From NCBI RefSeq assembly GCF_031458255.1, contig NZ_JAVDYC010000001.1:3729001-3793000 (forward strand): DNA of 64,000 bases. Direction: 5' to 3'. The notes under the pieces were generated by a model. It ran no database searches. It was given only the letters and a program-made list of their open reading frames with translations, and was not told where the DNA came from. This DNA is from Catenuloplanes niger. Its GTDB lineage: Bacteria > Actinomycetota > Actinomycetes > Mycobacteriales > Micromonosporaceae. Made by a program: the position numbers and the translations under genes. This document shows, one piece after another, positions 22,831 to 32,893 of the stretch; the first letter of the stretch is position 1; every line of letters begins with the position of its first letter.

Positions 22831-23880
22831 ATGGAACGTTCGGGGGGCTTCGTGGGCGAGGACGCGACCCAGGTCATCGACGCGGTCCGGCCGGCTCGCA
22901 AGCGCGGGCGGTGGGCCCGGGTGTTGATCTTCGCGGTGGTGACCGGGCTGGTGATCGCGGGCGGTGCGACCGCGGCGACCGCGCTCTACATCAGCTCGGT
23001 CGAGCGCGGCATCGAGAAGGTGGACGCGTTCACCGAGGTCCCGGAGGAGTCGCGGCCGGTCAAGGAGGAGGTCGCGGCGGACGCGCTCAACCTGCTGCTG
23101 CTCGGCAGCGACTCGCGCGACCCGGAGAACACCAGCGGTTCGCGCAGCGACACCATCATCGTGGTGCACCTGCCGGCCGACCGGTCCGGCGCACAGCTGA
23201 TCTCGATCCCGCGCGACACCTGGGTGCACGTGCCCCGCTCACCGGACGGCCGCAACGGCGACACGGACGCGAAGATCAATTCGGCGTACGCGTGGGGCGG
23301 CGTCCCGCTGATGGTGCAGACCGTGGAGGACTTCACCAAGGTTCGGATGGATCACGTGGTGCTGGTCGACTTCGGCGGCTTCCAGCAGATCGTGGACGCG
23401 CTCGGCGGCATCGACATCGAGGTCGAACAGGACTTCACGTCGATCCACGACCCGTTCCGCGAGTTCACCGAGGGCACCATGCACATGGACGGCGCCACCG
23501 CGCTGGACTACGCCCGGCAGCGCTACCAGTTCCCGGACGGCGACTTCGCCCGCATCCGGCACCAGCAGCAGGTGATCAAGGCGATCCTGGACCGGGCCGC
23601 GTCCGGCGGCATGCTCTCCAGCCCCGCCGCCGTCAACGACTTCGTCAAGGCCACGGCGGACGCGGTCTCGGTCGACCGGACCATGTCGATCCTCGACCTG
23701 GCCACCCAGATGCGCAACGTCCGCGGCGGCAACCTGACGTTCCTGACCACCCCGACCACCGGCACCGGCCGGGTCGGCGACGAGAGCGTCGTCTTCGCCG
23801 ACCCGGAGGCCGCGACCGCGCTCTACGACGCCGTCCGCACCGACTCGGTCCCCGACATCCTGGCCGCGGCCCAGAAGTAA
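22831..23880 (+). CDS. LCP-family wall polymer ligase (LytR-CpsA-Psr)
   Basis: A 349-residue membrane-anchored protein: a cytoplasmic N-terminus of about 30 residues, one TM helix (VLIFAVVTGLVIAGGATAATALY) and an external LCP domain. Family landmarks are NLLLLGSDSRDP, RSDTIIVVHLP, ISIPRDTWVHVP, KINSAYAWGG, GGIDIEV and ALDYARQRYQFPDGDFARIRHQQQ, with the conserved Arg and Asp residues that hold the polyprenyl pyrophosphate. LCP enzymes move wall glycopolymers or capsule from undecaprenyl phosphate carriers to peptidoglycan. It lies next to an O-antigen-ligase-like gene on the other strand, consistent with surface polysaccharide assembly. The ATG at 22831 is the only sensible start. Length is within the usual range. 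Confidence 0.96.
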   Translation: MERSGGFVGEDATQVIDAVRPARKRGRWARVLIFAVVTGLVIAGGATAATALYISSVERGIEKVDAFTEVPEESRPVKEEVAADALNLLLLGSDSRDPENTSGSRSDTIIVVHLPADRSGAQLISIPRDTWVHVPRSPDGRNGDTDAKINSAYAWGGVPLMVQTVEDFTKVRMDHVVLVDFGGFQQIVDALGGIDIEVEQDFTSIHDPFREFTEGTMHMDGATALDYARQRYQFPDGDFARIRHQQQVIKAILDRAASGGMLSSPAAVNDFVKATADAVSVDRTMSILDLATQMRNVRGGNLTFLTTPTTGTGRVGDESVVFADPEAATALYDAVRTDSVPDILAAAQK

Positions 23881-23926: not shown

Positions 23927-24006
23927 CCGCGGTTCAGCCTGCCGCGGTTCAGCCCGCCGCGGTTCAGCGGCGAGCCTGTAGCGGGTCAGCCAGTCCGCGG
24001 TTCAGC
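23927..24006. repeat. 15-bp tandem repeat between convergent genes
   Basis: CCGCGGTTCAGC(C/G) occurs at 23927, 23942 and 23957 in a 15-bp period and once more at 23995, overlapping the stop codon of the gene at 24002. This gap separates two convergent genes, and no other clear terminator hairpin is seen in it. Confidence 0.75.
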
Positions 24007-26572
24007 GGCGGCGGCGGTTTCCCGGACGCCGTCCGGTTCGCGGCTTCGCGCGCGGTGGGCGGCCGCTCCCGGCCCCCGCCTGACCGCCGTCCACGCCGGC
24101 CACCGGCTCGGCCCCCGCCGCGGATGCGGTCTCCGCCGCGGATGCGGTCTCCGCCCCGGTCTCGATGTCCGTCGCGGTCCCGGCGGGCGCCGCCACCTCA
24201 GCCCTCGCCGCCGGACCGGCCTCCACCGCCTCAATCTCCGCCGTCGTCTCGACCTCTGCGGCCTCCGCAGCCGCGGTCTGCGCAGCTTGTGCCGCCGGAT
24301 CGTTCTCCGTCGCCGCGCCCTCCGCCGCTGCCTCCGCCTCCAGGTCGGTCTCCGCCACCAGGTCGGTCTCCGCAGCCGGATCGGTTTCCGTAACCGGATC
24401 GGTCTCCGCAGCCGGATCGGTCTCCGCAGCCGGATCGGTCTCCGCAGCCGGATCGGTCTCCGCGGCCGCCTCGATTTCCGTACTCGGATCGGTTTCCGTG
24501 GCCCCCTCGGTCTCCGCAGCCGCCTCGATTTCGGGCTTCGGTTCGTCAGCGGCGGCGTCCGGGACTGTCGGCCGGCGCGGCCCGTGCGGCTCATCGGGGA
24601 TCTCGACCGCGGCGGAAGCGTCGCTCCTCGTCTCCTGACCGGCTGTGCCGATCGGCTCCACGAGTGCTGTCACGTCGGGATCGGCCGCGGGCTGCTCACC
24701 GGGATCGGCCACCGGGTTCGAATCCGCGGGTTCCGCGCCGTCCGCCGCGGCTCCGGTGTCCGACGCGGAGGCGGACTCGGCATCCGTGCGCGCGTCGGGG
24801 CCGGTGGCGACGTCGTCCCCACCGTTGGACGCGGTGACATCACTCCAAGGATCGGGAGCAGCACGGTCCTGGCCCGCGGAAGCAGAACTGGAACCAGCGA
24901 AGTCGTCGCCGGCGGGCCCTTCCACCGCAGCATCAGGAACTCCGGCGGCTTCCCCTACCGAGCCACCGGCCGCCTCGTCAGGAACGGCGATGTCATCCGC
25001 ACGGAGTCCGCCGGCGGCAGGATCGGCGACAGCCACGTCACCCCCGCCGGAAGCGACGGGCGCAAGGTCGGCGACAGCCAGGTCGGCCCCGCCGGAAGCG
25101 CTCACCGCAGGATCAGCGAAGGCCACGCCGGTGCCGGCGGAGCGGCCGGGAACGGGATCGGCGGCATCGTCCTGTACGGAACCGCCTGGTGCAGGATCGA
25201 CTGCCGCGGCAGCGTCTCCGGCAATACCGCTGGGCACGTGATGGGCGACATCATCCCCAGCAGAACCGGCGGGCGCAGGATCGGCAACCGCGACGGCACC
25301 TCCGGCAGAACCGCTCACCCCGGGCCCCTCCCCGGCCGGATCGCGTGGCACAGGATCGGCCGCTGCGACAGCGTCTCCGGCGGAACCGCTCGCCGCAGGA
25401 TGCTGCCCGGCCGGGTCGCGTGGCGCGGGATCGGCCGCTGCGACGGTGTCTCCGGTGGGACCGACCGGTGTGGGATCGGCGGCGGAGGGGACCGCCGGGA
25501 GTGGGGTGGCGGCGCGCGGGATGGCGGTGAAGGGGTTGGGGGCGGCGATGTCGATCTGGGCACCGAAGTAGCCGACGAGCAGCGTGAGGGCCAGCGGATA
25601 CGGGTCCCAGCCGGTCACTCCGGCGAGCGGCAGGCCCGGCGCGACGCTGATCAGGAGCCGGGACGGCACGTCGGCGCCGCGGGTCACCCAGGTGCGGCGC
25701 GCGGCGGCGGCCAGTACCAGCAGGACCGGCGCCCAGAGCAGCAGCGCGCCGAGCAGGCCCAGTTCCGTCGCGCCGCGCAGCACGACGTTGTGCACGTCGC
25801 CGGTGCCGGCGAGCTCGCCGGCGCCGACGCCGACGATCGGGTGGGTGCCGGTCACGGCGGCGGCCGGGTCCGTGGCCGGACGGGTGATCAGCCACGGCAG
25901 CGCGGCCGCGGTCAGCACGCCGGCCAGCGTCAGGATCGCCGCGTTTCCGCGCCGTCGCCGGCCGGACAACCGCTCCAGCAGCAGGAACAGCGTGACCATG
26001 GCGAGCGTGGCGGCCAGCAGCGCCCAGCTGCGGACCAGCCAGACACCGAGGAACGCGGCGGCGAGCGTGGCCCAGCTCCACCACCGGCGGCGCGGTAGCG
26101 TGAGCGCGCAGAGCCCGGACAGCAGGAACAGTCCGCCGGGCGCGCCGGTGAGCGCGACGACCGGCAGCTGCACCCAGGCGAGCAGCGCGACGCCCCGGGC
26201 GAGCACCGGTGGCCGGTGCTCGCCGTCGCTGTGCAGCAGGCGGACCTGCGCGGCGGCCCAGCCGACCGCGAAGCCGAGGCCGGCCAGACCGGCGTACAGC
26301 ACGCCGGTGACCGCGAAGCGGCCGTGCACGAGCAGACCGACGGCGAGCCAGGCGACGAGCGGGAGCCAGGGCAGCAGGCCGCCGACCAGGCGGCGCGGCA
26401 TGCGTACGGCCATCACCGCGGCCGCGGCGAGCAGCGCGGCGGCGTGCGGGTAGACCGCGCCCGGCATCGACGGCGGGACGAGGCCGAGCGCGAGGACGAC
26501 CGCGCCGAGCACGACCGTGGAGGGGCGGTCGACCACGCGGCCGGTCAGCGCGCCCAGACGTACCGTGGCCAT
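24002..26572 (-). CDS. O-antigen-ligase-like membrane protein with a very long acidic tail
   Basis: An 856-residue protein in two unlike parts. Residues 1 to about 355 are hydrophobic, with about ten helices, and contain the Wzy_C/O-antigen-ligase pattern: GTHPIVGVGAGE and then VHNVVLRGATELGLLGALLLW. That family joins or polymerises surface glycans outside the membrane. Residues of about 356-856 are a low-complexity tail rich in Ala, Asp, Glu and Pro, with repeats such as GSAGDAVAAADPVPRDPAG and AAETDP (18-bp DNA repeat, about 24350-24470). It ends in a basic stretch (RPPRAKPRTGRRPGNRRRR). The tail is unusual for the family. It could span the wall or bind partners; that is inference. The ATG at 26572 begins right before the first helix. 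It is convergent with the LCP gene. Confidence 0.75.
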   Translation of the reverse strand: MATVRLGALTGRVVDRPSTVVLGAVVLALGLVPPSMPGAVYPHAAALLAAAAVMAVRMPRRLVGGLLPWLPLVAWLAVGLLVHGRFAVTGVLYAGLAGLGFAVGWAAAQVRLLHSDGEHRPPVLARGVALLAWVQLPVVALTGAPGGLFLLSGLCALTLPRRRWWSWATLAAAFLGVWLVRSWALLAATLAMVTLFLLLERLSGRRRRGNAAILTLAGVLTAAALPWLITRPATDPAAAVTGTHPIVGVGAGELAGTGDVHNVVLRGATELGLLGALLLWAPVLLVLAAAARRTWVTRGADVPSRLLISVAPGLPLAGVTGWDPYPLALTLLVGYFGAQIDIAAPNPFTAIPRAATPLPAVPSAADPTPVGPTGDTVAAADPAPRDPAGQHPAASGSAGDAVAAADPVPRDPAGEGPGVSGSAGGAVAVADPAPAGSAGDDVAHHVPSGIAGDAAAAVDPAPGGSVQDDAADPVPGRSAGTGVAFADPAVSASGGADLAVADLAPVASGGGDVAVADPAAGGLRADDIAVPDEAAGGSVGEAAGVPDAAVEGPAGDDFAGSSSASAGQDRAAPDPWSDVTASNGGDDVATGPDARTDAESASASDTGAAADGAEPADSNPVADPGEQPAADPDVTALVEPIGTAGQETRSDASAAVEIPDEPHGPRRPTVPDAAADEPKPEIEAAAETEGATETDPSTEIEAAAETDPAAETDPAAETDPAAETDPVTETDPAAETDLVAETDLEAEAAAEGAATENDPAAQAAQTAAAEAAEVETTAEIEAVEAGPAARAEVAAPAGTATDIETGAETASAAETASAAGAEPVAGVDGGQAGAGSGRPPRAKPRTGRRPGNRRRR
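24350..24470 (-). repeat. 18-bp tandem repeat coding for AETDPA units
   Basis: Successive units of TCGGTCTCCGCAGCCGGA (+ strand) recur about six times with small changes. They code for AETDPA/VTETDP in the acidic tail of the O-antigen-ligase-like protein. Some adjacent units are identical, a sign of recent slippage. Confidence 0.85.
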
Positions 26573-26637: not shown

Positions 26638-27915
26638 TCAGATGCCGGTGGTGTCTCGGATGCCGGCGGCGATCCGCCGGAACTCGTTGTTCCAGTTGAT
26701 GTCGGCGGTCATCCGCATCACGACCTGGCGGTCGACCGAACCGCTGCGGTAGTAGCCGATCATCACGATGCCGTACCCGGAGCTGCCGTCGAGCTTCTCG
26801 GTCTCGGCGATCGTGATGTCGTCGCCGGCGAACCGCCAGTGTGCGCCGAACGCGTCCTCGGTGGCGCGCAGCGCGGTGCGGCGGGCCTCGTCGCAGGGTG
26901 AGCCGCAGTCCCGGGCGATGATCTCGCCGCCGGCGATCAGCACACCGTTCTCGATGTAGCCGCAGACGTGCCCGGCACCGCTCTGCTTGCACTTCCAGTT
27001 CGACGGCATCCGTACGCCGAAGCCGAGACCGGGCAGGGTGTAGACCTTCGTGGGGTCGCCGCTGCCGTACTCCGGCCAGCCGGCCGGCCAGGTGCCGGTG
27101 TACGGCGGCTCGATGCCGGGGCGGACCGAACGGGCCGGCACGCGGAAGTCGGCGTTGCCGCCCGCGGGCGGTGCCGGTGCGTTCCCGGCCGGTGCGGGGG
27201 CGGCGTCCTCCGCGGCGGGTGCGGCGGGCGCGGCGGAGGTGGCGCCGGCGGACGGGGTGACCGAGCCGGACGACGCGGTCGCGTTCATCGAGCCGGGCGA
27301 CGGGGACGCGGGTCCGGCCGGCACGCTCGCCGGGGCCGGGGCGGCCGCTTCGGCCGTCTCCGTGGTGGGGTCCGCGCCGCCGCCGGAGCGGGCGACGCCG
27401 ACGGCCACGCCGACGCCGACCAGCAGGGCCGTGACGCCGGCGGCGATGCCGATCCAGAGCCGGTTGCCGGGCTTGCGGGCGGTGGGTGTGCCACCGAACG
27501 GGTCCTCGGCGCCCGCGCCGAAGTAGGGACGCCGGGGTGCGGCGCCGCCGCCGAGCCCGAACGGATCGTCGCCCATCTCCATGCCGGTCTCGGAGACCGA
27601 GCCGGAGACCGGCGTGCCGAACGCGGGGACCGGCGTGTACGTCCGGCCGAGCGAGGCGAAGACGCGCTCGGCGCCGGGTTCCTCGGTGCCGTCGAACGCG
27701 ACCCAGGGCACCGCGGCGGTGAAATCGGCCCCGGCGTGCCCGGTGCCGGCGTGGGCCGCGAACGCGTCCCGCCAGCGCTGGTCGACCGCGGCCTGTGCGC
27801 TCAGCACGGCCACGGTCACCGGGAGTCCTCGCTGCTCGTCGACGGCCGACCACACCGTGCCGACGTCGCACGATCCGAGCTCACCGACCACCCGGTACGG
27901 AATCTCCGGCGCCAT
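26638..27915 (-). CDS. Membrane protein with kinase N-lobe remnant and secreted domain
   Basis: A 425-residue protein. It opens with APEIPYRVVGELGSCDVGTV and WSAVDEQRGLPVTVAVL, which follow the first strands and Gly-rich loop of bacterial Ser/Thr kinases. The Lys of VAxK is missing and no HRD, DFG or APE motif follows. A proline/glycine-rich cytoplasmic stretch leads to one TM helix (LWIGIAAGVTALLVGVGVAVG), a Pro/Ala/Ser linker, and an external C-terminal domain of about 155 residues. That domain has four Cys (KCKQSGAGHVCG, RDCGSPCDEARR) that may form two disulfides. I do not recognise the external domain. The ATG at 27915 is chosen because the kinase-like homology starts there. The gene follows a true kinase gene on the same strand by 81 bp, so it may be a non-catalytic partner. 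Confidence 0.7.
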   Translation of the reverse strand: MAPEIPYRVVGELGSCDVGTVWSAVDEQRGLPVTVAVLSAQAAVDQRWRDAFAAHAGTGHAGADFTAAVPWVAFDGTEEPGAERVFASLGRTYTPVPAFGTPVSGSVSETGMEMGDDPFGLGGGAAPRRPYFGAGAEDPFGGTPTARKPGNRLWIGIAAGVTALLVGVGVAVGVARSGGGADPTTETAEAAAPAPASVPAGPASPSPGSMNATASSGSVTPSAGATSAAPAAPAAEDAAPAPAGNAPAPPAGGNADFRVPARSVRPGIEPPYTGTWPAGWPEYGSGDPTKVYTLPGLGFGVRMPSNWKCKQSGAGHVCGYIENGVLIAGGEIIARDCGSPCDEARRTALRATEDAFGAHWRFAGDDITIAETEKLDGSSGYGIVMIGYYRSGSVDRQVVMRMTADINWNNEFRRIAAGIRDTTGI

Positions 27916-27996
27916 CGACTGCCTCCCCGCTACGAACGACCTGCGGAGTCTAGCGGTCGACGGCAACCCCCTCAGCCGCTCCGAGCTGCGGTGATC

Positions 27997-30129
27997 TCAG
28001 CCGGCGTACCACTTCTGGTGCTGGCCGCCGTTGCACTGCCAGATCTGGAGCAGCGCGCCGTTGCCGGTGTTGCCGTCCACCACGTCCACGCACCGGTCGA
28101 CCCGGATGTTTACCAGGTCACCGGCCGCGTTGAGCGTGAAGACCTGCTCCCAGCCGCCGTCGCAGCCGGCCGTGCGCAGCCGGCTGCCGTCGTTCTCGCC
28201 GGTCACCTCCAGGCAGCGGCCGAGCGTATGCAGCCGGCCGTCCGCCCCCAGCTCGAACGTCTGGCCGGCCGTGCCGTTGCAGTCCCATATCTGGATGGCC
28301 CGGTCGCCGGCCGCGTCGCCACCCGGCACGTCGACGCACTTGCCGCTGCCGGCGTTGACGATCGCGCGGCCGGTGAAGACCGGCGGTGGCCCGGCCGCCT
28401 CGCTCTCATCGGTAGCCGGGGCGCTGGCCGCGGGCGCCGCGACGTCCGGCGTCTCCGGCCGGGGAACGCCCGCGCCGGTGCCCTTGTCCGCCGGGGTCGG
28501 TGACGGGGACGAGATCGCGGTGCCGGTTCGGGTGGCGGTCGGCGTCGGCGTGAACTCACCGGGACGTGCCCCGGCCGGGGCGCCGATCGCCGGGTCCTCG
28601 GCGCGGCCGTCGTCGCCGGTGTCGCCCTCGGCCAGCGACGGCCAGACCAGCAGGCAGCCGATCAGCACCACCAGCAGCGGGATCAGGATCAGGACGGCCA
28701 GCCGGCCGCGGTCCGGGTCCGGGCCCAGCAGCCGGTCGACGAGGCCACGACCGCCGGCCGGTGCCGCCGGCGGCTGCTCGAAGCGGGACCGGGCGGTGCG
28801 CCCGCCACCCCCGGACGATCCGGCACCCCCGGACGATCCGGCGTGACCCATGACCGTCGAGCCGGTGCCGCCGCCGGTGGACGAGCCGACCCCGCCGACG
28901 GGAGAACCGGCGCCACCGGCGGACGAGCCGACACCGCCGACGGAAGGACCGATGCCGCCGGCGGAAGGACCGATGCCGCCGGCGGATGAGCCGGTGCCGC
29001 CGGTGGACGGGCCGCCGTTGACGGAGCCGGAGTCCAGGCCGCGGAAGCCGAAACTGCCCTCGACGCCGGGGATGGCCGAGGCCGGTGCCGCCGTCGCGGG
29101 TGCGGACGCGCTCGCCTCCGCGCCGCGGTAACCGAACCGGGTGTCCACCGTGCCCGCGGCGGCGGCCGGGACCGCGTCGGTGGCCTCGCTGCGCTCGTCA
29201 CGGGGCCGGACCGGGACGGCCGGACCAGCCGTCGGGAGGGCCGGCACGCCCGTCGGAACGGTCAGCTCCTCCCCCGCCGCCGCGGCGGCGGTGAGCAGCG
29301 CCTCCGTCTCGGCCGCGTTGATCCGCCGGGCCGGGTCCTTGCGCAGCAAGCCTTCCAGCACCGGGAACAGCGCACCGGCGCGTTGCGGTGGCGCGGGCAG
29401 CTCGGTGGCGAGCGCGGCGAGCGTGGCGATGGAGGACGACCGCGCGAACGGCGAGCGTCCCTCGACGGCCGCGTAGAGCGTGGCGCCGAGCGACCACAGG
29501 TCGGACGCGGGCGCGGCCGGCTCGCCGATCGCCCGCTCCGGTGCGAGATAGGCCGGGGAGCCGAGCACGATGCCGGTGCGGGTCATGCCCGGGTCGTCCT
29601 CGACCGTGGCCAGCCCGAAGTCGGTGAGCATGATCCGGCCGTCCGTGCCGAGCAGCACGTTCGCCGGTTTGACGTCGCGGTGCAGCACGCCGACGCGGTG
29701 GGCGGCACGGAGCGCGGCGAGCACGGCGAGGCCGATGCGGGCGGCACGTGCCGGCGCCATCGGCCCCTCGGCGCGCAGCACGCTGTGCAGCGGCTGGGAC
29801 GGGATGAACTCCATGACGATCCACGGGTCGCCACCGTCGATCAGGACGTCGAAGATCCGGACCGCGTTGGAGTGGCTGAGCTGTGCGATCGCGCGGGCCT
29901 CGCGGAGTGAGCGCTCGCGGAGCTGGGCCGTCTCCTCCTCGCTGAGGCCGGGCGGCGGCACGAGCTCCTTGACGGCGACGTCACGCCGGAGCATCTCGTC
30001 ACGGGCGAGCCAGACCCGCCCCATGGCGCCCTGCCCGAGCGCGCGAACGAGGGTGTAACGACCGGCGAGCGACCGTTCCGAGATTTCGGGCACCACCGAA
30101 CCGTACCGGTTTGAATATTGCGGGATCAT
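27997..30129 (-). CDS. Ser/Thr protein kinase with external ricin-type lectin domain
   Basis: A 710-residue transmembrane kinase. The kinase domain (residues of about 25-285) is complete: GQGAMGRVWLARD, VAVKEL, VLHRDVKPANVLL, LTDFGLA and SPAYLAPERA. A Gly/Ser-rich linker with eight-residue repeats (GGIGPSAG, GGVGSSAG) follows, then one TM helix (LAVLILIPLLVVLIGCLLVWP). A Pro/Thr linker leads to a C-terminal beta-trefoil of about 125 residues with the QxW-type lectin pattern (GKCVDVPGGD, AIQIWDCNG, RCLEVTGEN, ALLQIWQCNGGQHQKWY). Outside sugar binding could control inside phosphorylation. The start is ATG 30129 or one of the GTGs at 30096/30093; neither has a clear ribosome-binding site. The neighbour at 26638 may be co-expressed. 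Confidence 0.92.
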   Translation of the reverse strand: MIPQYSNRYGSVVPEISERSLAGRYTLVRALGQGAMGRVWLARDEMLRRDVAVKELVPPPGLSEEETAQLRERSLREARAIAQLSHSNAVRIFDVLIDGGDPWIVMEFIPSQPLHSVLRAEGPMAPARAARIGLAVLAALRAAHRVGVLHRDVKPANVLLGTDGRIMLTDFGLATVEDDPGMTRTGIVLGSPAYLAPERAIGEPAAPASDLWSLGATLYAAVEGRSPFARSSSIATLAALATELPAPPQRAGALFPVLEGLLRKDPARRINAAETEALLTAAAAAGEELTVPTGVPALPTAGPAVPVRPRDERSEATDAVPAAAAGTVDTRFGYRGAEASASAPATAAPASAIPGVEGSFGFRGLDSGSVNGGPSTGGTGSSAGGIGPSAGGIGPSVGGVGSSAGGAGSPVGGVGSSTGGGTGSTVMGHAGSSGGAGSSGGGGRTARSRFEQPPAAPAGGRGLVDRLLGPDPDRGRLAVLILIPLLVVLIGCLLVWPSLAEGDTGDDGRAEDPAIGAPAGARPGEFTPTPTATRTGTAISSPSPTPADKGTGAGVPRPETPDVAAPAASAPATDESEAAGPPPVFTGRAIVNAGSGKCVDVPGGDAAGDRAIQIWDCNGTAGQTFELGADGRLHTLGRCLEVTGENDGSRLRTAGCDGGWEQVFTLNAAGDLVNIRVDRCVDVVDGNTGNGALLQIWQCNGGQHQKWYAG
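28850..29020 (-). repeat. In-frame repeat of about 24 bp coding for Gly-Ser linker units
   Basis: Units such as GCCGGCGGAAGGACCGATGC (+ strand) recur, giving GGIGPSAG, GGIGPSVG, GGVGSSAG and GGAGSPVG in the linker of the lectin-kinase gene. Two adjacent units are identical. Confidence 0.8.
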
Positions 30130-30448: not shown

Positions 30449-31123
30449 ATGAACTGGCGCCAGCTCCTCATCGGCCGCAACCGGAAGATCGTCATCGGAG
30501 TGACCGCGGTCGCGCTCGCCGGTGGGGCCTTCGCGGTCGGCACCGGCATCAGCGGCGCGGCCGAGGGGCCGTGCGCGGGCATCGAGGCGGCCCGTCAGCG
30601 GAACCTCGACTTCATCGCGGAGCAGCGGGCCAACCCGGACGCGCTCTCCGACGCCCGGATCAAGAACCGGCAGGACGTGATCGCCGTGATCGACCAGCAG
30701 CTCGCGGCGGCCGGCTGTGCCCCGGCCCAGGGCGGCGGCGGTGCCGACGTGATCGCGGAGCCGCCGGTCGCGGACGCGCCCCCGGCCGAGGAGGACGACG
30801 CGCCCCCGGCTGAGGAGGACGCGGAGGACGCGCCGCCCGCCGGGGACACCGGCGGTGACCAGGGCGGCGAGGCCGGAGACGTGGTCTGCGACGGCTCGAC
30901 GGTTACCCTCTCCGGAGAGGCCGGCGCGCCGGGCGCGTCGAGCAACGAGTTCCCGGTCGGCACCCGGCTGCGGGTGACGAACCTGGACAACGACAAGAGC
31001 ATCACGGTCGAGGTGACCGGTGTCTCGGGCAGCTGCATCCTGCTGAACGACGCCGCCTTCGAGCAGGTCCGCGAGCCCGGCAAATTCCTGATCCGGCGCG
31101 CGGTCATCGAACTGGTCGGCTGA
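30449..31123 (+). CDS. Secreted protein with RlpA-like double-psi beta-barrel
   Basis: A 224-residue secreted protein. Signal or anchor helix: IVIGVTAVALAGGAFAVGTG. A helical segment with two cysteines follows (EGPCAGIEAARQRNLDFI ... AAAGCAPAQ), then an acidic Ala-Pro-Glu linker (DAPPAEEDDAPPAEED). The C-terminal domain of about 85 residues reads DGSTVTLSGEAG, FPVGTRLRVTNLDNDKSITV and SCILLNDAAFEQV. This matches the RlpA/expansin-type barrel (VGTxLRVTNxxNxxSxxV ... LxxxAFxxL), although the catalytic Asp of lytic members is not obvious. It may bind wall glycans rather than cut them. The ATG at 30449 has GGAG about nine bases upstream. The sulfatase gene follows 40 bp downstream. Confidence 0.8.
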   Translation: MNWRQLLIGRNRKIVIGVTAVALAGGAFAVGTGISGAAEGPCAGIEAARQRNLDFIAEQRANPDALSDARIKNRQDVIAVIDQQLAAAGCAPAQGGGGADVIAEPPVADAPPAEEDDAPPAEEDAEDAPPAGDTGGDQGGEAGDVVCDGSTVTLSGEAGAPGASSNEFPVGTRLRVTNLDNDKSITVEVTGVSGSCILLNDAAFEQVREPGKFLIRRAVIELVG

Positions 31124-31162
31124 TCCGCTCGTAGCTGACTGCGTCACTCCGGTGCGGGGTGG

Positions 31163-32893
31163 GTGGTCGGGGCGGCGGCCGGGACCAGACCTGATGCGCG
31201 AGCGATGGGGTTCGGTGTGCCAGAGGAACAGCCGGGAGAACGGCCGGGAGAACGGCCGGAAGAGCGAGCGGAGCGGGCAGAACAGCCGGCGGAAGGAGCG
31301 GAACCGCCGGTAACGGAACGAACGGCGGGGCGGTCCGCCGTCACCGTGCTGGCCGGCCTGCTGGTCCTGGTGGCATTGCTGCTGCCGAACCAGCTGACCG
31401 GCCTCACCGTCGCCACGTTCCTGCGCGTCCCGGTCGAGGCGCTGGCCGGCACGGTGCTCCTGCTGCTCCTGCCCGGCCGCGCACGGATCGCCGGCGCGAT
31501 CGCCGCGGGCCTGGTCCTCGGCCTGCTGACGCTGGTCAAGCTGGCCGACATGGGCTTCTTCACGGTCTACGCCCGCCAGTTCGACCTGGTGCTGGACTGG
31601 AGCCTCGCGGACGACGGCATCACGTTCCTCACCGGCTCGATCGGCCGGGCCGGCGCGATCGCCGCGGTGGTCCTCGCGGTGGCGCTGCTGCTGGCCGTAC
31701 CGGCGCTGATGTCCCTGGTGCTGATCCGGCTGGGCCGGGTCTTCGCGCGGCACCGCACCGCGACGACCCGCGCGGTCGCGCTGCTGACCACCGCGTGGCT
31801 GGTGCTGGCGTTGGCCGGCAGCCCGGTCGCGGACCGCGGCGCGACCGCGTTCCTCACCCAGCGCGCCGGGCTGGTGAACGCCGCGCTGCACGATCAGGAG
31901 ACGTTCGCTGCCGCGGCCGCGGTGGACGCGTTCCGGGACGTGCCGCCGGACCGGTTGCTGACCGGCCTGCGCGGCAAGGACGTGCTGCTCACGTTCGTGG
32001 AGAGCTACGGCCGGAGCGCGGTCGAGGACGAGTCGATGGCCGCACCGGTCGACGCGGTGCTGGCGGACGGCGCGCGGCGGCTGACCGCGTCCGGGTTCGC
32101 GGCGCGCAGCGGCTGGCTGACGTCGTCGACGTTCGGCGGCTACAGCTGGCTCGCCCATTCCACGTTCCAGTCCGGGCTGCGTGTCGACAACCAGCAGCGG
32201 TACCGCACGATCGTGGCCAGCGACCGGCTCACGCTCTCCGAGTCGTTCCGCCGGGCCGGCTGGTCCACGGTCTGCGTCGCGCCCGCGAACACGTACGCCT
32301 GGCCGGAGGGCGACTGGTACGGCTTCGACACCGTCTACGACTCCCGCAACCTGGGGTACGCCGGGCCCAAGTTCGGCTGGACCACCATGCCGGACCAGTA
32401 CACGCTGACCGCGTTCGAGCGGCTGGAGCGCGGGCGCGCGGACCGCGGGCCGATCATGGCCGAGCTGGACCTGCTGTCCAGCCACTTCCCGTGGGACTCG
32501 ATCCCCGAGATGATCGACTGGGACGCGGTCGGGGACGGCTCGGCCTTCGCGGGCATGCCCGAGCGGGTCAGCGTGCCCGCGGAGCCGCGGGACGCCTACC
32601 GGATGTCCATCGAGTACTCGCTGACCGCGCTGTTCACCTATCTGGAGCGGCACGGCACCGACGACACCGTCGTGATCTACCTGGGCGACCACCAGCCGGC
32701 CACCACCGTCACCGGCCCGAACGCCAGCCACGACGTGCCGGTCACGATCGTCGCCAAGGATCCCGCGGTCCTCGACCGGATCGACTCGTGGGAGTGGACC
32801 GCCGGCCTGAAGCCCGCGCCGGACGCGCCGGTCTGGCCGATGGAGTCGTTCCGGGACCGTTTCCTCACCGCGTACGGCCCGAACGGATCTTGA
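31163..32893 (+). CDS. Membrane sulfatase-superfamily protein (LTA synthase-like)
   Basis: A protein of up to 576 residues: a charged N-terminus, about five TM helices (residues of about 60-230), then a large external alkaline-phosphatase/sulfatase-type domain. Features include DVLLTFVESYGRSA (metal-binding Glu region), WLTSSTFGGYSWLAHSTF (likely nucleophile Thr/Ser), LLSSHFPWDSIP and VVIYLGDHQP (metal-binding Asp-His). This layout is shared by lipoteichoic acid synthases and phosphoglycerol transferases, which add glycerol-phosphate to envelope polymers. Related actinobacterial genes lack an assigned substrate. The start is GTG 31163 or ATG 31205; neither has a strong ribosome-binding site. 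It lies 40 bp after the RlpA-like gene and may be co-transcribed. Confidence 0.85.
   Translation: MVGAAAGTRPDARAMGFGVPEEQPGERPGERPEERAERAEQPAEGAEPPVTERTAGRSAVTVLAGLLVLVALLLPNQLTGLTVATFLRVPVEALAGTVLLLLLPGRARIAGAIAAGLVLGLLTLVKLADMGFFTVYARQFDLVLDWSLADDGITFLTGSIGRAGAIAAVVLAVALLLAVPALMSLVLIRLGRVFARHRTATTRAVALLTTAWLVLALAGSPVADRGATAFLTQRAGLVNAALHDQETFAAAAAVDAFRDVPPDRLLTGLRGKDVLLTFVESYGRSAVEDESMAAPVDAVLADGARRLTASGFAARSGWLTSSTFGGYSWLAHSTFQSGLRVDNQQRYRTIVASDRLTLSESFRRAGWSTVCVAPANTYAWPEGDWYGFDTVYDSRNLGYAGPKFGWTTMPDQYTLTAFERLERGRADRGPIMAELDLLSSHFPWDSIPEMIDWDAVGDGSAFAGMPERVSVPAEPRDAYRMSIEYSLTALFTYLERHGTDDTVVIYLGDHQPATTVTGPNASHDVPVTIVAKDPAVLDRIDSWEWTAGLKPAPDAPVWPMESFRDRFLTAYGPNGS

Follow-up and report, generated by a model that had tools for sequence, protein, structure and literature searches.

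Within the window that we analyzed (a 64,000-nucleotide stretch of Catenuloplanes niger contig NZ_JAVDYC010000001.1, positions 3,729,001 to 3,793,000), a gene on the minus strand encodes a 425-residue membrane protein, which we call a half-kinase receptor. Its coding part occupies 26641-27915, with the ATG at 27915 and the stop codon at 26638-26640. This ATG has an upstream ribosome-binding site and is common to the homologs, and we dropped a longer, TTG-started open reading frame (27966) in its favor. The gene lies between a Ser/Thr kinase gene and a gene for a Wzy-like membrane protein (Table 1). As the original prediction described, 81 bp separate it from the kinase gene, which is complete according to Pfam (Pkinase, E 2.7e-43; Ricin_B_lectin, E 9.9e-24).

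Table 1. Features of the half-kinase receptor locus (window positions)
Feature	Position	Strand	Basis or detail
LytR-CpsA-Psr (LCP) glycopolymer transferase	22831..23880	+	PF03816, E 8.8e-47
Wzy-like (O-antigen-ligase/polymerase-like) membrane protein, long disordered tail	24002..26572	-	65 bp downstream, same strand
Half-kinase receptor gene, 425 aa, ATG start	26638..27915 (stop included)	-	ORF reading, homolog alignment
Mog1/PsbP-like outer domain (predicted), residues 265-425, four invariant Cys	26641..27123	-	AlphaFold2, VIA-align
External Ala/Pro/Ser-rich stalk, residues 178-264	27124..27384	-	Sequence; dN/dS 0.40-0.58
Transmembrane helix, residues about 152-177	27385..27462	-	Hydropathy maximum 2.3 at residues 157-175
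Cytoplasmic Pro/Ser/Gly-rich linker, residues 98-151	27463..27624	-	Sequence, homolog alignment
Stand-alone kinase N-lobe, residues 1-97	27625..27915	-	AlphaFold2, VIA-align, profile matches
N-lobe elements: β1 8-15, β2 19-26, β3 31-38, αC 46-56, β4 62-64, β5 71-75, helix 83-88 (residues)			
Ala36 replacing the catalytic β3 Lys	27808..27810	-	Alignment column 42
Cys16 replacing the second Gly of the GxGxxG loop	27868..27870	-	Alignment column 21
Ribosome-binding site GGGGAGG	27922..27928	-	6 bases 5' of the ATG
Complete Ser/Thr kinase, transmembrane helix, ricin-B lectin outer domain	27997..30129	-	81 bp upstream, same strand

The receptor has a single hydrophobic helix by hydropathy, and the basic residues flanking that helix on its N-terminal side suggest that the N-terminus is inside. 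The protein has zero Pfam matches, an NCBIfam search returned nothing above a cut-off, and a kinase-family Pfam match is absent from 10 of 10 full-length relatives; half-kinases would therefore escape kinome surveys that rely on Pfam. The linker (27463-27624) carries short P-V-S-G / S-x-P-P repeats, which also occur in the linkers of five other loci (L005, L015, L006, L065, and L066) and are much expanded in other genera; the linker is possibly a multivalent docking or phosphorylation segment.

Kinase ancestry and catalytic residues

Sequence comparison in both directions and fold both show that the cytoplasmic domain shares ancestry with the N-lobe of actinobacterial Ser/Thr kinases. The original prediction expected the N-terminus to model as a kinase lobe, and it does: residues 1-97 gave an AlphaFold2 pLDDT of 84.8 from a 10-sequence alignment, with the order β1-β2-β3-αC-β4-β5 followed by the first post-hinge helix. 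The kinase resemblance noticed at the outset was thus correct in kind and too short in extent, because it had been limited to the first 60 residues. VIA-align comparison of Foldseek candidates gave Z scores of 9.6 to PknA (6b2q) and 9.5 to PknB (1o6y), and among the matches listed, 50 of 50 were kinases or pseudokinases; Foldseek alone returned nothing at E ≤ 0.001 for this lobe, its best match being PknA (E 2.1e-3, probability 1.00). A profile of 24 N-lobe sequences, searched against 177,635 distinct PDB sequences, also found PknA as its best match (E 2.9e-6), and protein kinases made up 28 of the 29 matches at E ≤ 10. Searched against its own genome, the profile matched 14 further places beyond the query, the best at E 2.5e-11 and covering nearly the full lobe; a simple motif scan read a kinase with VAxK and HRD in 10 of them and gave no reading in 4. 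In the reverse direction, the matches of a profile built from 11 kinases (10 from this genome and 1 from C. japonicus) to family members span at the most its positions 2-99 of 268 and never reach the C-lobe. These three sets of profile matches rule out a chance resemblance to kinases.

An HRD/DFG-bearing C-lobe is absent from every family member examined. A frameshift concealing a C-lobe was rejected: the next downstream gene in the window is the Wzy-like gene, and an all-frame search of the fetched regions with the kinase profile found C-lobes only in complete kinases.

The catalytic residues of the N-lobe itself are also lost. None of the 24 aligned N-lobes has the β3 Lys (Ala, Val, or Leu instead) or the αC Glu (Ala, Thr, His, or Ser instead), each of which is present in 11 of 11 control kinases; this alignment excludes the N-terminal part of the G034 protein, which lies in another frame, and the close copies L009, L010, L014, and L006. 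Here the original prediction held in full: the Lys is Ala36, and none of the later kinase motifs is present. With the Lys, the αC Glu, and the whole C-lobe gone, a protein of this sequence is incapable of phosphate transfer, and ATP binding is very improbable. At the second Gly of the loop, 19 of 24 N-lobes have Cys and 11 of 11 kinases have Gly, a pattern that would fit a working Cys through which the lobe could sense oxidation or undergo modification, such as acylation. We regard such a switch as highly improbable, given that four of the remaining members have Gly, Ser, or Ala at this position and one has a gap.

The family is under purifying selection and is not decaying. N-lobe dN/dS is 0.26-0.51 across six pairs within the genus, the lobe keeps invariant and nearly invariant positions of its own (Trp22, Arg49, and Trp71 are among its conserved residues), and in a tree the 24 N-lobes fall on one side of the branch that separates them from 11 kinase N-lobes (support 100/99). 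The original prediction had called the domain a remnant; it belongs instead to an old, selected family with its own place in the tree. Nor is it left over from a duplication of the adjacent kinase, since that kinase ranks only 11th of 15 own-genome places (query included) and the N-lobes cluster together, separate from the 11 kinases. A conserved family consisting of the N-lobe only suggests that half a kinase can stand, and be selected, alone, and offers a minimal system for studying the role of a kinase N-lobe independent of ATP and catalysis. Among the titles found in a non-exhaustive open-access literature search, none described an N-lobe-only receptor.

Distribution and outer domains

All five Catenuloplanes genomes searched encode a half-kinase receptor, and two of them carry a second, diverged copy. 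The original prediction proposed looking for this architecture in Micromonosporaceae, where we found the family in 21 of 61 sampled genomes, representing 15 genera, and read the regions to confirm it; absences in this survey are soft, as at most 27 candidates were scored per genome, and one genome (G061) gave a weak match (E 2.5e-11). In a survey of the class, 3 of 148 genomes encoded the outer domain: the one studied here, another of the same family, and one of another family (G093), whose protein has no N-lobe. The counts of loci given below refer to 25 family genes in 22 genomes and leave out L072 (G038) and the named contigs L006-L008; L005 and G003 are the same contig.

The outer domain (residues 265-425) was modeled with a pLDDT of 89.8, and its predicted fold is Mog1/PsbP-like: VIA-align gave Z scores of 8-10.8 over 109-133 residues, with PsbP, Mog1, LpqN, and MTC28 in the top rows, and the best Foldseek E was 7.3e-4. 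The domain had 0 sequence matches in the PDB at E ≤ 10. The transmembrane helix and Cys-containing external domain of the original prediction were both borne out; Cys 309, 318, 337, and 341 occur in every one of the 21 aligned outer domains, and we infer that they form the pairs it had assumed. The Mog1/PsbP-like fold is shared with LpqN, MTC28, Apa, and the PknH outer domain (Z 7.1-9.2; PknH 7.1), from which this domain differs in its lack of a PDB sequence match, its four invariant cysteines, and its placement on a half-kinase receptor.

The C-terminal part of the family varies. Most members have the Mog1-like domain, two (L068 and L070) have a trypsin-like domain, L069 has another Cys-containing domain, and L071 has almost no C-terminal part. 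The trypsin-like domain, joined to the N-lobe via the transmembrane helix (L068:7618-9771; L070:7300-9597), is 32-36% identical to a separate protein encoded beside the gene in L006, L007, and L054; fusion in one set of loci and adjacency in the other suggest that the half-kinase and the trypsin-like protein act together. In G034 (L060:8212-9827), the N-lobe and outer parts of the protein are encoded in different reading frames, separated by about 36 bp, owing to a frameshift, a sequencing error, or a split gene.

This variation bears on whether the N-lobe has a role at all. The outer domain might do the work, by binding a ligand or polymer, with the N-lobe a stable cytoplasmic plug derived from a receptor kinase. 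Consistent with such a passive anchor, the outer domain has higher HMM scores than the N-lobe and a dN/dS of 0.14-0.54, and a locus from another family of the order (L075) encodes a membrane protein with a Mog1-like outer domain and no N-lobe, possibly a form that predates the joining of the N-lobe. We nevertheless find a passive anchor quite unlikely, because the N-lobe retains invariant and nearly invariant residues of its own and is kept with at least three other C-terminal arrangements (L068/L070, L069, and L071).

Gene neighborhood and proposed function

A kinase gene lies directly upstream of the receptor gene, on the same strand, in all five Catenuloplanes genomes (gaps of 76-202 bp). 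Beyond the genus the pairing fails: among the 18 other counted loci, a kinase is one gene away in one and 3.4 kb away in another, and it is absent from the fetched region in the remaining 16, as well as at both paralogs within the genus. The conserved gene pair on which the original prediction had relied is therefore real for Catenuloplanes, and we rejected it as a rule for the family. Within the genus, the receptor is possibly a decoy, inhibitor, or co-receptor of the lectin kinase, as was first suggested. A partnership with a kinase cannot be the general function of the family, because the pairing is confined to the genus, whereas polysaccharide genes recur across genera. We mapped the PknB back-to-back interface residues R10, L33, and D76 onto the alignment; in the column that we take to correspond to D76, Asp is present in 11 of 11 kinases but in only 1 of 24 N-lobes. 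That value, the kinase-free loci, and the low rank of the adjacent kinase among own-genome matches all argue against pairing of the receptor N-lobe with that of the lectin kinase, whether the result were allosteric activation or inhibition by a decoy. Such pairing has precedents in addition to the gene order in the genus: bacterial kinases can dimerize back to back, with an allosteric role proposed in PMC6333020, and HipS, a separate piece matching HipA N-subdomain 1, is described in PMC10627512 as inhibiting HipT. On balance, we consider a kinase partner unlikely as the main explanation.

Genes for surface polysaccharides, of the Wzx, Wzy, LCP, and glycosyltransferase kinds, are a more widespread feature of these neighborhoods. 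The window's own Wzy-like protein has zero Pfam matches; it is 47% identical over 464 amino acids to its C. japonicus ortholog, which passes the Wzy_C cut-off. At 24002-25500 the protein has a disordered tail, several hundred residues long, that contains (AETDP)n-like repeats; its orthologs range from 550 to 856 amino acids in total length. Of the 25 family genes, 10 have a Wzy_C match within 10 kb and at least 7 have an LCP gene within 5 kb, where random placement would give 0.19 and 0.26, respectively, by Poisson expectations that treat the 22 genomes as independent although related genomes are not. Because gene calling was crude, with some genes assigned to the wrong strand (L022 and L056), we took Wzy_C positions from the Wzy_C search. 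In four further loci of the genus (the orthologs in G000, G001, G002, and G004), a Wzy-like relative missed by Pfam directly follows the receptor gene. Trypsin-like variants (G005 and G039) also have a Wzy_C gene 2-3 kb away; the link thus goes with the N-lobe and not with a particular outer domain. Other loci contain MurJ-type flippases, GT4 and GT2 glycosyltransferases, AftA, and PMT_2.

Of the 25 loci, 11 (G035, G007, G034, G040, G026, G015, G052, G043 [twice], G048, and G027) lack both a Wzy_C match within 10 kb and the Wzy-like gene of the genus, although several of them hold other glycan genes (PMT_2, GT2, GT4, and GH26). Two family members have neighbors of other kinds: one (L062:5195-10016) is in a type VII secretion locus, next to genes for EccE and an AAA protein, and the one in L071 adjoins an isocitrate dehydrogenase gene. 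The neighborhood by itself does not show contact with polysaccharide machinery.

Since the half-kinase receptor often adjoins surface-polysaccharide genes and is unable to act as an enzyme, it is probably a noncatalytic switch or scaffold for polysaccharide machinery. Our specific and tentative proposal, to which we assign a probability of about 0.4, is that it is a nucleotide-dead receptor acting as a scaffold or gate for Wzy-type glycopolymer assembly in the manner of the MviN pseudokinase. The domain layout, kinase homology, selective constraint, and gene neighborhood are shown by computation; the partner and the direction of control are what we infer here. The half-kinase would be a protein-docking module. 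The outer domain may sense the condition of the envelope or of the glycopolymer as it grows, and the N-lobe, together with the Ser/Pro-rich linker, would recruit cytoplasmic partners or hold them off, so that the neighboring Wzy-type polymerase/ligase system would be gated without catalysis. In Catenuloplanes, the co-operonic lectin kinase might add control by phosphorylating the linker or contacting the N-lobe. It is conceivable, though doubtful on present evidence, that half-kinase receptors form a Micromonosporaceae class in which a reusable nucleotide-dead N-lobe, joined to different outer domains, gates Wzx/Wzy-type glycopolymer assembly purely through contact between proteins. The family may represent an undescribed regulatory layer for surface polysaccharides in spore- and sporangium-forming actinomycetes. 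According to PMC12691653, a putative Wzx/Wzy polysaccharide is important in the development of sporangia; we mention the Actinoplanes sporangium matrix cluster imp as context only.

Comparison with known kinases and pseudokinases

PknA, PknB, and the kinases of the same genome resemble the half-kinase receptor in the fold and sequence of the N-lobe, its N-terminal cytoplasmic position, the single transmembrane helix, and the presence of an outer domain. The receptor differs from them in having no C-lobe, no Lys, no αC Glu, and a Cys in the Gly loop; it cannot be a kinase. The separately encoded HipS of HipBST is likewise a piece that corresponds to the N-terminal part of a kinase, but it matches HipA N-subdomain 1 and is an antitoxin within a toxin-antitoxin complex. 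Presumably, HipS also lacks both a transmembrane segment and an outer domain.

The closest functional model is MviN (Rv3910, ActPs3), which shares with the half-kinase a dead kinase module beside a transmembrane segment, a tie to glycan or lipid-carrier export, and a scaffold role, in our case a proposed one. MviN differs in that it has both lobes and is fused to a flippase, whereas the half-kinase is an N-lobe only, on a separate single-pass protein with a predicted Mog1/PsbP-like outer domain. PMC12599244 and PMC11898655 describe the MviN pseudokinase as recruiting FhaA and inhibiting peptidoglycan synthesis; PMC11898655 argues for FhaA promoting synthesis. A transmembrane segment C-terminal to the kinase-like domain, given as a feature of ActPs3 in PMC12599244, is present in the half-kinase receptor by hydropathy. 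The pseudokinases reviewed in PMC12599244 (ActPs1-3, GLW, CP1, DYD, and DLHK) have a bilobal kinase domain with degenerate motifs; the half-kinase shares the loss of motifs but has no C-lobe at all. EssB/YukC of type VII secretion (in Firmicutes, the setting of EssB) is described in a review as a membrane pseudokinase with a degraded loop, and is similar in those respects. It belongs to another system and its kinase-like domain has a remnant of the activation loop; in the half-kinase family, only the L062 member lies by type VII genes.

Divergently transcribed upstream of the lectin kinase gene (30449-32890) are genes for a 224-amino-acid protein without a Pfam match and a sulfatase-family membrane protein (PF00884). 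Both are found upstream of the kinase in all five Catenuloplanes genomes, and their products may share an envelope locus with the half-kinase receptor.
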